Below are positions 6,665 to 14,767 of a stretch of DNA of 15,264 nucleotides, piece by piece. How positions within the stretch are numbered: the first letter of the stretch is position 1; each line of letters starts with the position of its first letter. The DNA is from a bacterium (lineage in GTDB: Bacteria > JAJVIF01 > JAGGVT01). The position numbers were made by a program, and so were the translations under genes. Location of the stretch: assembly GCA_021157815.1 (NCBI GenBank), contig JAGGVT010000122.1:1-15264 (forward strand), read 5' to 3'. The notes under the pieces were generated by a model that ran no database searches, was not told the origin of the DNA, and worked only from the letters and a program-made list of their open reading frames with translations.

Positions 6665-6695
6665 TTGTACCGTAGTATTTTGTTTTTTTGATAAT
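6665..6695 (+). promoter_or_regulatory. Proximal promoter candidate for flagellin
   Basis: GATAAT (6690-6695) resembles a housekeeping -10 box. The overlapping TTTGATAA (6687-6694) matches 5 of 8 positions of the sigma-28 -10 box, with a weak -35 (TACCGTAG, 6668-6675; 4 of 8) at the right 11-base spacing. A start near 6702 would make a leader of about 78 bases beginning just before the two hairpins, which is why I prefer this site over 6540. Confidence 0.35.
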
Positions 6696-6709: not shown

Positions 6710-6771
6710 TCGGGCAGGATGCCCGAACATCGGTTCAGAGTGAACCGAATTACCTAAGTCTTTCAAGGAGG
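6710..6771 (+). promoter_or_regulatory. Structured flagellin leader: two hairpins plus Shine-Dalgarno, possible CsrA target
   Basis: Hairpin 1 pairs TCGGGCA (6710-6716) with TGCCCGA (6720-6726) around a GGA loop (6717-6719). Hairpin 2 pairs TCGGTTCA (6730-6737) with TGAACCGA (6741-6748) around a GAG loop. The Shine-Dalgarno AAGGAGG (6765-6771) lies 8 bases before the ATG. CAGGATG with GGA presented in a loop matches the core of the known CsrA binding consensus, and AAGGAGG also contains GGA. This arrangement parallels the hag leader of Bacillus subtilis, where CsrA binds an upstream hairpin and the ribosome site. The hairpins are seen directly; the regulator is inferred. Confidence 0.6.
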
Positions 6772-6779
6772 AAAGAGCT

Positions 6780-9371
6780 ATGGGTGTTCTTCAGATTAAC
6801 CAGAACATTATCGCGTTTAACGCTCTTCGATCCCTATCACAGACATCACGGGAATTGGAACGTTCTGTCGAGCGGTTGTCAAGCGGCTTGCGGATAAACC
6901 GCGCATCGGATGATGCCGCCGGTTTGACCATTTCAGAACGTCTTCGCGCGCAGGTTCGCGGCCTGACTCGCGCGTCACAAAACGCAGCTGAGGGTATCTC
7001 TTTTATACAGTCGGCGGAAGGCGCCTTGATTGAGAACAACACTCTCCTGCAGAGGATTCGCGAACTTGCAATTCAGGCGGCAAACGGAATTCTTACCGCC
7101 AACGATCGGCTGGAAATCCAGAAAGAGGTTGACCAGTTGATCCAAGAGATAGACCATATCTCAACAATGACGGAATTCAACACCAGGAAACTGCTTGATG
7201 GTTCCGCCGCCGCGCTTATCAGCGTGAATGATCCAACTCGAATGGATGTTATTGTAAATGGAGATGTTGGCAAAGGTGGAAACTACCAGATCAGAACACA
7301 GCTTCTCGACCCGCCGCAGCTTGGTATCTGGAAATCCGACCAGTTCAACACAATCGCAGGGGAGGACAGGGTCGGCGACCTTAACAGCCTTACCACTTTC
7401 CTGAACAACGCGTCTTTTACCGGAGGAATAAGCCAGACAGGCATCAACGAGATTGAAATTCAGTCTCTGGATGTCAATGGCAGGATGATGGTGTCAGGAG
7501 GAAACGCTACACTGTCCATTCTTGGAATCACCGAGGCTGTCGGTACGGATAATATCGTTGACCTGTTCCAGGCAAAAGGGCTGACAACAGGTACGGACAT
7601 GATTCATTTCACAGGATACAATTCCGCTGGCGCTATCATTGACCAAACCATTCTGATTACCGCGGCATTAACAGTAGGCGAACTTGAGGGTTTCCTCTCG
7701 ACCGCACTGTTTGCTGGCGCGGGCGAGGGATTGGTAAGCATCGGCGCGAACGGACGGCTTTTCGTATCAAACGCCGCAGGTACCAGTATCGTTGTTTCAG
7801 ACATTGAGCTTAATGACATTGACTTCTCCAGCAGCAGCTTGAACCTGAGTGTCTCAGCGTTCTCACTTCCTGCAGGAACTAACAGCGGATACATGGGTAA
7901 CGCGCTGATTGCCGGAGCAAGTGTCGCGTTAACAGCAAATGGCACTCGCATACTTGATTCAGTAACCACCGGAATCAACTCAATTGGTACAGTAGGTACC
8001 GGCGCTCTTAATGTCAGATTTGATGAAACTGTCACTGCAGCCTCAACTGATCAAATTATATTTGACACGGTTGGACTGAACGAGTTGTCCGAGTATGGCA
8101 CAATCACACAGGTTTCAGCTGTCGCGGGTGATTATGTATTTATGATATCCGCGGTTTCAAACGATACCTATCGTGTCACCAACCTGACAACCGGCAGTGT
8201 TTCAAACACGATTAGCATCAACGGCGCTGGAACAGACACCAGTTTGAATCTCGATTCAATGCAGGGACTCAGGCTGGCGTTTGACGCTATCCTTGTTGAG
8301 GGTGAGACAGCTATTTTCCATGTCAGCACAAACAACGTGCTTCAGGCACAGCGCTTAACACAGCTTCACTCAATCTCTCGATTTATTGAAGAGGATGTGT
8401 TTGCCGGACGGGATACAGTGGAACTTGGAATCGCAGTTCCGGGTACAGGCAGGATGACAAGAATCTATATCAACGCCACTGACTCAGTTGATGAGCTGGT
8501 TGGGAAGATAAGCCTTGCGCTCGCCAACCCGAACAGCTCTACCGATTTGAATCTCGAACAGGCGCTCGCGGGTGGGCATTTCCCGAATCTTGTTAATTTT
8601 AATCTCACAGGACCCGCGCGCGGAACGATGTCAATTACATCGCCGATACCCGGTGCTGATCTGGCATTCTTCGGTGATGAGGGACTTCTTAACGCATTGA
8701 GCCTCATGAACATTCAGGAATCCCGTAAAGCCAATTACCAGGTGAGCATAGTTAATCTGCACACAGGAGAACTCGTTGAGCAGACAACCACGCCTACAGG
8801 TGTGTTAAACGGAATTCTTCCGGGCCTTGAAGTCAGGCTTGACACAAATCAGGGATTCAAGGTTGATCCCAATGACAACGGCATGACAGGTGGGGCTTAT
8901 AATCTTGATCCATATCTCACACCATTGATATCGGTCTCTCAGGATTTTATTGGAAGCAGCTTCCTGCATGTTGTTCCAAACGGAATTAATTTCCAGATTG
9001 GCGCTAACCAGAATCAGGGGCTTAAGGTTGCAATTGCCCAGATGGATGCCCTGGCGATTGGTGTGAGGGGATTGACTCTCGCATCAACAAAGTCGGCGGA
9101 ATCAGCTATTACAAAAGTTGATACTGCCATCGACAAGGTTTCAAGCCTCAGGGCAATGCTTGGTTCGATTCAGAATCGCCTGGAAAGCACTATCAGGAAT
9201 CTTGATATCAGCCGACAGAACCTCGCAGGTGCGGAAAGCGGAATCCGTGATTTGAACATCGCGGAACAGAGTATCGCGTTTACAAGAGAGCAAATTCTGC
9301 TGCAAAGCGGTATGGCTGTGCTTGCACAGGCTAACGGGCTGTCGCAGAATGTTTTGCAGTTGTTACGATAA
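6780..9371 (+). CDS. fliC: Flagellin, unusually long
   Basis: This 863-residue filament subunit is exported by the flagellar type III apparatus. The N-terminal D0/D1 region (1 to about 140) is canonical: INQNIIAFNALRSL, RLSSGLRINRASDDAAGL, QNAAEGISFIQSAEGAL, QRIRELAIQAANG (91-103) and EFNTRKLLDG. The C-terminal D1/D0 region (about 757-863) is also intact, ending LAQANGLSQNVLQLLR. Between them lie about 615 residues of Thr-, Ser-, Gly- and Asn-rich beta-type sequence, presumably surface-exposed extra domains; many flagellins total 270-550 residues. Segments such as SVDELVGKISLALA and TVGELEGFLSTALF recall flagellin hook-IN modules. AAGGAGG supports the start, and a hairpin-rich leader precedes it. 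It is monocistronic by context: a perfect 13-bp stem-loop lies about 90 bases downstream. The gene could equally be called hag or flaA; no other flagellar gene is nearby. Confidence 0.95.
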   Translation: MGVLQINQNIIAFNALRSLSQTSRELERSVERLSSGLRINRASDDAAGLTISERLRAQVRGLTRASQNAAEGISFIQSAEGALIENNTLLQRIRELAIQAANGILTANDRLEIQKEVDQLIQEIDHISTMTEFNTRKLLDGSAAALISVNDPTRMDVIVNGDVGKGGNYQIRTQLLDPPQLGIWKSDQFNTIAGEDRVGDLNSLTTFLNNASFTGGISQTGINEIEIQSLDVNGRMMVSGGNATLSILGITEAVGTDNIVDLFQAKGLTTGTDMIHFTGYNSAGAIIDQTILITAALTVGELEGFLSTALFAGAGEGLVSIGANGRLFVSNAAGTSIVVSDIELNDIDFSSSSLNLSVSAFSLPAGTNSGYMGNALIAGASVALTANGTRILDSVTTGINSIGTVGTGALNVRFDETVTAASTDQIIFDTVGLNELSEYGTITQVSAVAGDYVFMISAVSNDTYRVTNLTTGSVSNTISINGAGTDTSLNLDSMQGLRLAFDAILVEGETAIFHVSTNNVLQAQRLTQLHSISRFIEEDVFAGRDTVELGIAVPGTGRMTRIYINATDSVDELVGKISLALANPNSSTDLNLEQALAGGHFPNLVNFNLTGPARGTMSITSPIPGADLAFFGDEGLLNALSLMNIQESRKANYQVSIVNLHTGELVEQTTTPTGVLNGILPGLEVRLDTNQGFKVDPNDNGMTGGAYNLDPYLTPLISVSQDFIGSSFLHVVPNGINFQIGANQNQGLKVAIAQMDALAIGVRGLTLASTKSAESAITKVDTAIDKVSSLRAMLGSIQNRLESTIRNLDISRQNLAGAESGIRDLNIAEQSIAFTREQILLQSGMAVLAQANGLSQNVLQLLR

Positions 9372-9659: not shown

Positions 9660-9771
9660 ATATTTATTTGTCGCGTCGCCAATGTTACGGTACAATAGTA
9701 TTGGTTTGCTTAATATAAGACAGGGTTGCTTTTTATAAAAGTATAACAATTTTAGATCGAAGGTGATTCAA

Positions 9772-11994
9772 ATGATCAGGAATAACATTACTATTATAAT
9801 CCTGGCAATAGGATTATTCATTCTTGGATGCTCCTCCAACAGCACTAATCCCGTTACGCCCATAAATGAGGAAAACAATTTGCCGGGCGTGACAACATCG
9901 GATTCAAGCCAGGCAGGGCATGAGCTTGCTGGAATCTGGACTATTAATTTCGACCCGATTTCAAATGATATTTCAATGGAGCCTTTTCGTGACGCCGCAT
10001 ACCATTATTCAGCTCTCTGGCACCTTCTCCCGCCCCGTTGCGAGGACTGCGTTCAAATCCATGTTAATTCATGGAATTCAGGCACGAATGTTATTGATGC
10101 GGATGTTACGTTGAAAAATCCGTACATTCTGATTGCCTATGACGTTCGTGGAATTGTTTTCACAGATGAGCTTGGACATATGCTTGTCAACGATGACGCA
10201 TGGACAGGTTTGTTCGATATCCCCGGCGGTGAGGATATTAACCCGTTCAAGGCTTTCGCAAAGGATGTTGCTCGACGTGCTGCTGTGCCATATGCGTATA
10301 ATACGGAGAATTTCAAAATCCATTGTCCTGAACCGGGAGACATTCATTACGCGGTTGATGTCTCAATTAACAACAACTGCTTTGAACCATACGCGATTGA
10401 GAATTTCCTGCAAAATGAACTCCTGGAAGACATCGGCTCAACTGCGGATTTGAGTGTCGATGTTTATGATTGGCAGGATGATGTCGATATCGTGAAAATC
10501 GCCGCTGAGGTTATCACCGGAGAGGAGTTCAGCTATTTCAGCCATTCAAGCGGATGTACATGGACTTATGAGATTACAAACAACTCAGGCGCGCCAAACG
10601 GGAATTACACCGTTTTAATGACTGCTGAATCAAACACATTACCGCTTTATAAATTTGTGAAAATCCGTGTAGGCCCAAAAGAGGGCTGGGTCCGAACATG
10701 GGGTGGAACTGGCGTTGACCATGCTATCCTCTCCGTGACAGATGATACAGGCAACATATACACAACAGGTTATTTCAGTGATGCAGTTAATTTCGGTGGG
10801 GAAATTTATTATGAATCAAACGGGCAGGCGGATGTTTTCCTGAGCAAATATGATTCCAAAACTGGTTTGTATTGGGTAAATGTCTGGGGTGGTTCAGGTT
10901 CTGATTCAGGCACGGATATAGCTCTGGACGATATGGGGCATGTTTATATATCCGGACGATTTGAGGAAACAGTCGATTTTAATCCTGGCGAGGGTATTGA
11001 TGAACATACTGCTATGGGTAACGAAGATTCCTATTTCAGCAAATTTGATACCGACGGCAATTTCATTTATGCAAAAACCTGGGGAAGCTCAGGTCAGGAT
11101 TATAGTGAAGGCATCGCTACTGATGATTGGAATGATATCTTTGTCGCAGGTTCATTTCAGAGCACAGCTGATTTTGACCCCGGCGCTGGAGAGGTAAATC
11201 TAACAAGCAACGGGATGTGCGATGCTTATGTAAGCAAATTCGATTCAGCAGGAACTTTCCAGTGGGTTGGCAGTATAGGTGGCGGTTCGGATGATGGCGC
11301 CTATTCTGTTTGCACTGACAGCGCAGGCGATGTGTATGTTACCGGGCAGTATCCAGGCTACTATTATACCCACCTTACCAAGTGGGATGGTGAAGGAAAT
11401 TATCAATGGACAAAAACATGGGGTGGTGGACACACTAACGGTGGTCATGCTATTGCAGCTGATGATTCGGACTATATATATGTTACAGGCTGGTTTGTTT
11501 ATACAGTGGATTTCGATCCGGGTACCGGCACTGATTCACATTCATCAAATGGTGAACGAGATGCATTTGTAAGCAAGTTTGACACAGATGGCAATCACTA
11601 TTGGGCAGCAACATGGGGCGGCTCAGGCAGAGAATTCGGCCAGGGTGTTGCATTCGATGATTCAGACAACGTATATGTATCCGGCTTTTTCCATAACAGT
11701 GTGAATTTCGATACAGGCGGGGGTTCGGATATTCACGACTCCGCGGGTGGAAGTGACGCTTATATAATCAAATTTGATTCATCCGGCAACTATATTACAG
11801 CTCAAACATGGGGCGGTCCAGGGAACGATGTCGGCACTGGAGTCACTGCATATGATGATAATTCCCTGTATGTCGCGGGATGGTTTTCCGATACGGCGGA
11901 TTTCTTTCCGGGGATGGGAATCGAGGAACATGAATCAAACGGCGCAGATGATTGCTTCCTGCTGAAGCTCAATTCCAACTGCGGCTGGGATTGA
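9772..11994 (+). CDS. Lipoprotein with shared N-terminal module and seven-bladed SBBP-type propeller
   Basis: This protein has 740 residues. A type II signal peptide ends in FILGC-SS, so the mature protein should be lipid-anchored in the envelope. Residues about 45-300 form a module also present in the downstream lipoprotein: C90-x2-C93, TLKNPY, YDVRGI, INPFKAF, FKIHCP and VYDWQ (D233). From about 305 to the end are seven SBBP-type beta-propeller repeats, each marked by (T/V)WGG-like starts at residues 309, 371, 436, 501, 549, 614 and 679, then DxxxNxYVxGxF, (D/N)FDPG and DAFVSKFD motifs. Six intervals are 62, 65, 65, 48, 65 and 65 residues; the fourth repeat is short, lacks the Trp (SIGGG) and lacks the FDPG segment. 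SBBP propellers are usually extracellular; ligand and role are unknown. ATG 9772 is chosen because AGGTGA lies just before it; an in-frame GTG at 9763 overlaps that site. Confidence 0.85.
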   Translation: MIRNNITIIILAIGLFILGCSSNSTNPVTPINEENNLPGVTTSDSSQAGHELAGIWTINFDPISNDISMEPFRDAAYHYSALWHLLPPRCEDCVQIHVNSWNSGTNVIDADVTLKNPYILIAYDVRGIVFTDELGHMLVNDDAWTGLFDIPGGEDINPFKAFAKDVARRAAVPYAYNTENFKIHCPEPGDIHYAVDVSINNNCFEPYAIENFLQNELLEDIGSTADLSVDVYDWQDDVDIVKIAAEVITGEEFSYFSHSSGCTWTYEITNNSGAPNGNYTVLMTAESNTLPLYKFVKIRVGPKEGWVRTWGGTGVDHAILSVTDDTGNIYTTGYFSDAVNFGGEIYYESNGQADVFLSKYDSKTGLYWVNVWGGSGSDSGTDIALDDMGHVYISGRFEETVDFNPGEGIDEHTAMGNEDSYFSKFDTDGNFIYAKTWGSSGQDYSEGIATDDWNDIFVAGSFQSTADFDPGAGEVNLTSNGMCDAYVSKFDSAGTFQWVGSIGGGSDDGAYSVCTDSAGDVYVTGQYPGYYYTHLTKWDGEGNYQWTKTWGGGHTNGGHAIAADDSDYIYVTGWFVYTVDFDPGTGTDSHSSNGERDAFVSKFDTDGNHYWAATWGGSGREFGQGVAFDDSDNVYVSGFFHNSVNFDTGGGSDIHDSAGGSDAYIIKFDSSGNYITAQTWGGPGNDVGTGVTAYDDNSLYVAGWFSDTADFFPGMGIEEHESNGADDCFLLKLNSNCGWD

Positions 11995-12262
11995 TAAGCA
12001 ATCAGGATAACAACTGGCAATTTAAACAAAAATGGCTTATAATTTATAGATGAGGGCACATCGCGCGGGTTGATAGGAATCTCAGGTGTGCTAGTTTGGC
12101 ATTTCAGTACACCGGCCGATAATGTTAATGTGATTTAATGATTTGCGCCGGAGTCTAAAATGCTTATAATCTTCCGGGGATTCTGTTTCATTTGTAACCA
12201 AAGATGGGAATCGACATTAAAACGAAATGTTTCTTTAAATCAACGATACGGAGGTGCCCTTC
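11995..12262 (+). promoter_or_regulatory. Intergenic region with candidate promoters for the second lipoprotein
   Basis: No gene is seen. GCTTATAAT occurs twice (12035-12043 and 12162-12170), each holding a perfect TATAAT; the upstream -35 matches are weak (TGGCAA at 12015, 17 bases away; TTGCGC at 12143, 16 bases away). GCCGATAA (12115-12122) is identical to the sigma-28 -10 box, but nothing like TAAA stands 11 bases upstream. GGAGGTG (12250-12256) is the ribosome site of the next gene. I cannot choose between the promoters. Confidence 0.35.
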
Positions 12263-14767
12263 ATGAAGGGTAAACGTATTCTATTCACAATTCTGGCCCT
12301 TGTCGCAGCAGCTGTCCTTTTAATCGGATGCAGCAGCGGGAATGGGACACGGGGAATCACGACACCACAGGATACGCCTCCAGGGAACGATGTAATACCT
12401 TTAGGCTCAGATGGCTACTCAGGCACAGCCAGCCTGGGGGCTTTCGAGGTTGTTCTGAATACCGATGACATGACGTACGAGGTCAATCCGGTTCCACGCT
12501 CAGCAAGTGTTATAGGAGATAACTACCAGCTGGATGCGACCAAATTCTTTATCGATGAGCCTTGCGCCAATTGTTTTCGCATGGATGGTTTTGGAATAGA
12601 TCCAAGCGGAAACCTTTTGGTTCAGTTCTCATTGAAGCATCCTTTCGAGGATACAACCAAACGGCTTGATCTTGACGCGTTTGATGTGAAACTGATTATC
12701 ATCAACGCGGCTGATTCTGAATTTGGAGACACCGAGTTTCCATTAAGCGGTGAGGTTGACACTAATGGCGACGGATTGCCGGAGGTGCTCAGGGGGAATA
12801 CGCAGTTCCTCTTAAACGCCGATGGTTACACAACTCATCTGGATATGATCGCCGAACTGCCGGAGTATTATCCCCCTGAAGGTTTGGGGCTGGACGGTAA
12901 TCTCAATCCATTCAAGTATTTCTTCATTGAGGATGATCCCGACCCGGCTGTTGACGGTGTGGAAATTCCAAACCATCGAATGCAGCAGGGAGCCGGCTGG
13001 GATACGAAGGAATTTGAAATTAAATTCCCGTCAGGCGGCGGGTTTGTTAAATTCGTTACCGCTATCGAGGTGGCATACGGCCAATCCGCGGTTCGATACA
13101 CAAGGCTCTTCCCTGTTTACTGGCTTCCCCAGTATAACCAGAAAGAGGCATACTCAGTCTCTGTTGCCGATACAACAAATTCACTGAACACACAGTATGA
13201 TTCGACAACTACACTTCATATTGAGGTTCTTGACTGGCAGCATGGTTACATTGAGGATATCATGTATCCTGATGCTGACAACCTGATTGGGCTTGATTAT
13301 ATCAGCGACATAGACAGGTGCGTTGTCGAGATTCCGGGAATTACAGCGTACGCGCTGACAAAAAACGCTCCGGGATCAGGCGGTTCGGGGCATACCGGCG
13401 ATCCAATGATGTTTGATATCGTTGTCGCAAATCAGTCAACACCACTGGCCGTGGCGGGAACATATCCCGGCTTGGTGACAATTGTTGACACGCATCATCC
13501 CCACCAGATATCAATACCGGATGATCCATTCTATCCTGAATATATTGAGGACATTCGAGCATACCAGTTATTCGAGGTCAATATTTACCCGATGACGAAT
13601 TTCAATGTTGTAGCAACCTGCGAGGGCGTTGATACCGGGCTTACACAGGGCCCAGCGCCGTACGCAAATTCACTAGTCGGACAATGCGACCTTGGGGTTT
13701 ACAACGACGGTGTGCATAGCGGTGTTCTCATGGCGGATGAAGACAACGACATCATTCGGTTTGAACTCGATTACACCAATGCTCCGGGTGGCACATTTTA
13801 TACGGACGGCGCAATGATTGTTGACACATGCCCGCCGACAGTGCATCCGGGAAACACCGGAGGCCCGTTGCCTAACCAGGCGGTTTACAGAATAGATGCC
13901 GCTGCTACTGGCGCGTTTATTATTTCAAACAGCGATGATAATTTCACAGTTAATGGTGGACCTGTTGGACTGTTACGTTGTCTGCCAAATTCAGCTCTTG
14001 TCAGACCGTATGATATGTTCGGAACCGGCAGTGCTTTCTTTACTGGTGGACACGGAAGCGCTCCTGGGCCTGCTCTTGGTGAAAGGATTTGGGAGGTTTT
14101 CGAGGATGCATCTGATCACGGCGGGGAAAACCCTCTCTGCTACTTCTCAGCGGGACCTAATACTGAGAAAGACGGTAGTGACACTATCGATTGCTATTAT
14201 ATTGAGGAACCATATAGTGCAGGCTATGATGTATTTCGCAAATCGAATCTTAACTACCTCTTGATGCCGGGACCTTATAACTGGGCAGACCTTGAGTATC
14301 TTGCAGCGGACACAGGAACGTTCAAAGGCGGAACGGAAAAACTTCTGTGGATACTTGTGCCTGATCCGGCGAATCCGGGTGTTAAAGGAATCAACATTCT
14401 GGATGATCCGATAGCTGCGGATACCGTATTCTTCCTGACCGATCCTCTGCTGAACGCTGTTGATCTTGAAGTTCTGGAATATGATCCGGATAATCCGCGC
14501 GCGCTTAACGGAATCGGGCAGACATCCGACTGGATTTGCATTCTCTACAGCCAGGGCATTATAGATATCTTTGATGAAGCAGGCGTTGCGATGGATCGAA
14601 TTGACGGCACCGCCGCTTCACTTACTGAAGATAACGGCACGTTGTTCTATGGCGAATCGATGCATCTTGACGTCGATGATTATCTCTATAGAATCCACGT
14701 AACAATGGACGCCAACGGTTATAACAACGCCGCGGGCGCTATTCGAGTTAGCGTGTTTACACTGTAG
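12263..14767 (+). CDS. Large lipoprotein sharing the N-terminal module; unknown C-terminal half
   Basis: This 834-residue protein has a type II signal peptide with lipobox LLIGC (C23). Residues about 80-330 match the N-terminal module of the neighbouring lipoprotein: C101-x2-C104, SLKHPF, DAFDVKLI, LNADGY, LNPFKYF, FEIKFP and VLDWQ (D324). The landmarks are spread wider, so this copy has insertions, one holding DTNGDGLPE (166-174), which resembles a calcium-binding loop. An Ig-like stretch probably follows (about 335-430). The last 400 residues contain repeated beta-strand patterns with Asp, Gly and Pro that might form a propeller, but I recognise no family. The ATG at 12263 follows GGAGGTG by 6 bases; an in-frame GTG at 12254 lies within that ribosome site. 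It is co-directional with the propeller lipoprotein but has its own upstream region, and a strong terminator follows. The function is unknown; an exported, surface-associated role is inferred. Confidence 0.8.
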   Translation: MKGKRILFTILALVAAAVLLIGCSSGNGTRGITTPQDTPPGNDVIPLGSDGYSGTASLGAFEVVLNTDDMTYEVNPVPRSASVIGDNYQLDATKFFIDEPCANCFRMDGFGIDPSGNLLVQFSLKHPFEDTTKRLDLDAFDVKLIIINAADSEFGDTEFPLSGEVDTNGDGLPEVLRGNTQFLLNADGYTTHLDMIAELPEYYPPEGLGLDGNLNPFKYFFIEDDPDPAVDGVEIPNHRMQQGAGWDTKEFEIKFPSGGGFVKFVTAIEVAYGQSAVRYTRLFPVYWLPQYNQKEAYSVSVADTTNSLNTQYDSTTTLHIEVLDWQHGYIEDIMYPDADNLIGLDYISDIDRCVVEIPGITAYALTKNAPGSGGSGHTGDPMMFDIVVANQSTPLAVAGTYPGLVTIVDTHHPHQISIPDDPFYPEYIEDIRAYQLFEVNIYPMTNFNVVATCEGVDTGLTQGPAPYANSLVGQCDLGVYNDGVHSGVLMADEDNDIIRFELDYTNAPGGTFYTDGAMIVDTCPPTVHPGNTGGPLPNQAVYRIDAAATGAFIISNSDDNFTVNGGPVGLLRCLPNSALVRPYDMFGTGSAFFTGGHGSAPGPALGERIWEVFEDASDHGGENPLCYFSAGPNTEKDGSDTIDCYYIEEPYSAGYDVFRKSNLNYLLMPGPYNWADLEYLAADTGTFKGGTEKLLWILVPDPANPGVKGINILDDPIAADTVFFLTDPLLNAVDLEVLEYDPDNPRALNGIGQTSDWICILYSQGIIDIFDEAGVAMDRIDGTAASLTEDNGTLFYGESMHLDVDDYLYRIHVTMDANGYNNAAGAIRVSVFTL

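Follow-up and report, generated by a model that had tools for sequence, protein, structure and literature searches.

The leader of the flagellin gene in the window (the whole stretch of 15,264 nt analysed here) is, in all likelihood, a two-site CsrA operator at which translation would be repressed by CsrA and the repression relieved by FliW. This interpretation is derived from a combination of several lines of evidence: the adjacency of csrA and fliW, the hexaloop that presents the Shine-Dalgarno (SD) sequence, conservation of the leader within the class, covariation, the genome background, the contrast between genomes with and without fliW, a loop motif control, and the precedent of Campylobacter jejuni flaA. 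Flagellin synthesis is therefore very probably held in check by a feedback switch of the Bacillus/Campylobacter kind. The CsrA-FliW flagellin switch, proven in these two bacteria, would thus extend to an uncultivated class, in which the leader is conserved enough for in vitro testing. Control of this type had been proposed by a sequence-only reading, and csrA-fliW, the class leaders and the covariation all support that proposal.

Fold of the flagellin leader

The entire leader has a predicted folding energy of -33.4 kcal/mol (z -3.5 to -4.3), which is equalled by none of 200 dinucleotide shuffles. The sequence-only reading had described two tight hairpins upstream of the flagellin SD, and both stand in this fold; a third hairpin, which that reading had missed, encloses the SD itself (Table 1).

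Table 1. Features of the flagellin gene and its leader (window coordinates)
Feature	Position	Strand	Basis
GATAAT, merely possible -10 element	6690..6695	+	read by eye; promoter scan gives no support
Distal hairpin, GGA 6717-6719 in loop; proposed distal CsrA site	6710..6726	+	fold; GGA hairpins in eight class leaders; CsrB repeat
Middle hairpin, GAG loop; proposed spacer between two proposed CsrA sites	6730..6748	+	fold; class leaders
Outer helix, 6751-6758 with 6778-6786, around the SD hairpin and over the start codon	6751..6786	+	predicted fold
SD hairpin, ANGGAN hexaloop 6765-6770; proposed CsrA site blocking the ribosome	6759..6776	+	fold; covariation; genome rarity
Flagellin gene, 863 aa, proposed to be under leader control	6780..9371	+	Flagellin_N and Flagellin_C; class homologs

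The distal hairpin, TCGGGCA-GGA-TGCCCGA, has 7 bp and, folded alone, -11.3 kcal/mol (z -4.4). The GGA in its loop lies, as had been noted, within CAGGATG, which exactly matches the CsrB repeat CAGGA(U/A/C)G (PMC7652899). The loop, a tight GGA triloop or an AGGAU pentaloop, has a C in position -2 and differs from the optimal 6-nt ANGGAN; selected CsrA ligands have mainly 6-nt loops and short stems, whereas this hairpin is stable with a smaller loop. The SD hairpin, UCUUUC-AAGGAG-GAAAGA (arms 6759-6764 and 6771-6776), presents the SD AAGGAG as a hexaloop closed by C-G. Its ANGGAN form is the one in which CsrA sites are classically presented, and AAGGAGG, earlier suggested as a possible second GGA site, has a better form than had been guessed. 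The middle hairpin, TCGGTTCA-GAG-TGAACCGA, has 8 bp. Enclosing helices similar to the outer helix of the window appear in the minimum-energy folds of the remaining class leaders.

The two GGA motifs are 50 nt apart in the window, or about 31 nt with the 19-nt middle hairpin folded out. Elsewhere in the class, the spacing rises to 71-81 nt, in most cases with an intervening hairpin, compared with 15-34 nt in most of the other phyla sampled. A single CsrA dimer can bridge sites 10-63 nt apart (PMC7652899), and the 71-81 nt of some class leaders are longer than the 63 nt spanned in vitro unless the middle hairpin is folded. Given the long spacing, the limited bridging range and the intervening hairpin, the GAG hairpin is taken to be a structural spacer between the CsrA sites. 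The sequence-only reading had left it as either structural or a decayed site; the former is favored, because the middle loop mostly lacks GGA in the class, and the latter fits less well, although one class leader has GGA there. A hairpin separates the two GGA sites in most class leaders, and its loop contains GGA just once: among the orthologous leaders of sister genomes, the middle loop has GGA in G003 (L039 near 3600) and GGG in G001 (L037 near 2530), a difference that might mean that a third CsrA site was acquired in one lineage or lost in the other.

A scan of the window against Rfam at gathering thresholds matched no family. The sigma-70 and sigma-28 consensus promoter scans found nothing convincing upstream of the flagellin gene; if GATAAT were a -10 element, the transcript would start just 5' of the distal hairpin. 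The possibility that the hairpins form a terminator was rejected because no T run lies 3' of them and the terminator scan lists none here.

Conservation in the class and occurrence in the genome

A search of the genome from which the window derives identified csrA (C30:179-334, E 1.3e-22) and fliW (C30:543-911, E 9.4e-30), the latter adjoining both csrA and flgL in a flagellar operon with the gene order flgN-flgK-flgL-fliW-csrA on contig 30 (flgN and flgK were identified by sequence and gene order). The presence of the two genes, which the sequence-only reading had named as a check, is thus established, together with their adjacency. The 82-aa CsrA retains L4 and R44, residues reported to be critical for RNA binding (PMC7652899), and also the C-terminal extension, where FliW would bind; its residues 2-79, this extension included, align with the CsrA chain of the solved FliW-CsrA complex (5dmb_D). 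The FliW protein matches the solved FliW structures 2aj7 and 5dmb_A, and fliS is present in the genome as well.

The class was sampled with four genomes, the window's own and G001-G003, each of the latter three with one csrA and one fliW. Comparison of the eight leaders of full-length flagellins in these genomes (window included) shows that in all eight a short hairpin presents the SD in its loop and a GGA hairpin stands upstream. Under a strict criterion (ANGGAN hexaloop, stem of at least 4 bp), with the expectation obtained from shuffled flanks in which every GGA core was kept, the SD hexaloop passes in six of the eight leaders (0.28 expected) and a distal hexaloop in five (0.39 expected), a count to which the distal hairpin of the window, with its triloop or pentaloop, does not contribute. 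The second flagellin of the same genome has the SD hairpin GAAGC-AAGGAA-GCUUC. Covariation in the class SD stems is 0.444, compared with 0.216 for shuffled stems; 2 of 500 shuffles are as high, and all slid registers give lower values. The other check that had been suggested, on orthologous leaders, therefore also came out in favor of the proposal, with GGA-loop hairpins kept throughout and SD-stem pairs that covary.

The SD element is rare in the genome and linked nearly exclusively to flagellin-type genes. Among ORFs with a GGA-type SD, those with the SD in an ANGGAN hexaloop on a stem of at least 4 bp number 2 of 247 in 522 kb of the genome, exactly the two flagellins, and 6 of 595 in 1.19 Mb, where three of the six are flagellin-type, both full flagellins included. 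Of the remainder, one is a poorly supported ORF (L240) and two are non-flagellin genes with 4-bp stems (L245, L276). It is extremely improbable that the arrangement arose by chance, that is, that GGA is simply inherent in strong SDs and upstream GGA hairpins are common enough. AAGGAGG does supply ANGGAN unaided, and about 9% of the ORFs in the 1.19 Mb have an upstream GGA-loop hairpin of at least 5 bp, but such an origin is contradicted by the shuffles, the genome background, the orthologs and the covariation.

The third flagellin-type member of the six is a 307-aa ORF on contig 51 (L232:9778-10701), with the SD hairpin CTTTC-ACGGAG-GAAAG, the same element as at the second flagellin, and without a clear distal GGA hairpin. 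In a BLASTP comparison, its product is similar to the window flagellin in the N-terminal (E 1e-11) and C-terminal (E 2e-5) parts, which are colinear; the Pfam Flagellin_N match falls under the cut-off, and no orthologs were found in the three class-mates besides the flagellins themselves. On this similarity, the product is a degenerate flagellin paralog. Because the ORF was picked up via the RNA element rather than the protein, it indicates independently that the element accompanies flagellins.

Link to fliW across phyla

The association of the leader structure with fliW was surveyed in 27 genomes from many families in which the flagellin start was readable. At least one flagellin gene has an ANGGAN hexaloop hairpin with a stem of 4 bp or longer, either at its SD or farther upstream, in 20 of the 21 genomes with fliW compared with 1 of the 6 without it (Fisher p 0.0004), under criteria that, for the leader tests, were fixed after the first leaders had been seen, and for genomes that are not phylogenetically independent and include few that lack fliW. 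Flagellin genes with GGA-hexaloop hairpins 5' of them occur in nearly all sampled fliW-containing genomes and in few of those without fliW (L006-L034, L163-L222). One genome (G011, 2.5 Mb) has 19 Flagellin_N matches (L019, L180, L203-L216), most of them with leaders that have no GGA hairpins, and one leader (L180) whose distal hairpin has 10 bp and whose SD hairpin has 5 bp.

Within the distal region of the leaders from fliW-containing genomes, 28 of 63 ANGGAN words lie in hexaloops of the kind defined above, in contrast to 56 of 2028 other AN-xyz-N words, the next best triplet in this control reaching 5. The 55 SD stems from across the phyla, taken in register with no selection for pairing, show a covariation of 0.478, compared with 0.183 when shuffled (0 of 500 shuffles as high), with the maximum at the true register.

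These results bear on two alternatives. CsrA could act at the SD hairpin alone, with the upstream hairpins just protecting the 5' end of the mRNA or keeping the SD region folded. Single-site CsrA targets such as hfq are known (PMC7652899), the distal loop of the window is not the optimal hexaloop and the degenerate paralog has the SD hairpin without a clear distal partner; nevertheless, this explanation is unlikely considering that distal GGA hairpins are found in all class leaders and that ANGGAN is by far the favored loop word upstream of the SD where fliW is present. Even less probable is a function independent of CsrA, in which the hairpins would either slow translation in general or respond to temperature by masking the SD and the start codon, or else would stabilize an abundant mRNA. 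The SD and the start codon are indeed both inside the predicted structure, but such a function leaves unexplained why, among all triplets, GGA occupies the upstream loops, as well as the fliW link and the location of csrA-fliW inside the flagellar operon.

The survey, although small, points to an old and general partnership between fliW and flagellin leaders with GGA hairpins. This outcome agrees with the proposal that the control of flagella may be the older role of CsrA-FliW (PMC4894983).

Comparison with known flagellin switches

At Bacillus subtilis hag and C. jejuni flaA, CsrA bound at two sites blocks translation, FliW relieves the block and flagellin competes for FliW (PMC7652899, PMC4894983); flaA, where CsrA binding is proven, is the described Gram-negative precedent (PMC4894983). 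By analogy with these two systems, we infer that CsrA binds and bridges the two-site operator of the window and represses translation, and that FliW relieves this repression. A CsrA dimer would contact the GGA loop of the distal hairpin (6710-6726) together with the loop of the SD hairpin (6765-6770), probably bridging both sites across the folded middle hairpin, and occupancy of both GGA loops would keep the ribosome off the flagellin mRNA. Export of flagellin would free FliW, which would then bind CsrA and lift the block; when flagellin accumulates, it would take up FliW, and CsrA would repress again.

The flaA leader of C. jejuni is the closest in layout, with two GGA-loop hairpins in a Gram-negative bacterium, the second over the ribosome-binding site, compensatory changes that preserve them, and a fliW gene (PMC4894983). 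Its 45-nt 5'UTR, however, has two adjoining stem-loops, whereas the sites of the window have a third hairpin between them. The window leader is thus laid out like that of C. jejuni flaA plus an extra hairpin, and the local feature is the long spacing with a folded hairpin in between. The distal CAGGAUG of the window also sits in a tighter hairpin than in flaA, for which binding is proven, whereas in the window it is predicted. Like the window, hag has two CsrA sites with the downstream one over the SD, and fliW-csrA lies beside flgK-flgL (PMC7652899, PMC8523840), but about 25 nt separate BS1 (A51-A55) from BS2 (C75-G82), rather than 50 nt with a hairpin between. In Escherichia coli glgC, CsrA is likewise tethered by a site in an upstream hairpin loop and from there reaches across to a second site over the SD (PMC7652899); this is a metabolic gene, however, and the antagonists are the CsrB/C RNAs, not FliW.

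More tentatively, the class might possess a three-hairpin variant of the CsrA operator, in which the folded spacer would bring distant GGAs within the reach of one dimer, the outer helix would close the start codon, and the same SD element would control the degenerate flagellin-derived protein. This elaborate form appears somewhat doubtful as a whole. No description of the leader was found for this lineage in the open-licence literature, which is weak evidence of absence. The sequence-only reading had pointed to translational feedback control in a Gram-negative-type lineage. The genome encodes the outer-membrane ring protein FlgH, in keeping with an outer membrane in this bacterium. Such control is not new for a Gram-negative, given flaA of C. 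jejuni.

The window flagellin contains the Flagellin_N and Flagellin_C domains and, unlike the B. subtilis hag product, a long middle part; its class homologs are 56-68% identical. The protein had been called giant, but its size is not special, because most class homologs are similar in length and the PDB contains a flagellin of 793 aa. Downstream of the flagellin gene, the window encodes two large putative lipoproteins (9763-11994 and 12254-14767), one with a match to beta-propeller (SBBP) repeats and the other without any Pfam match.
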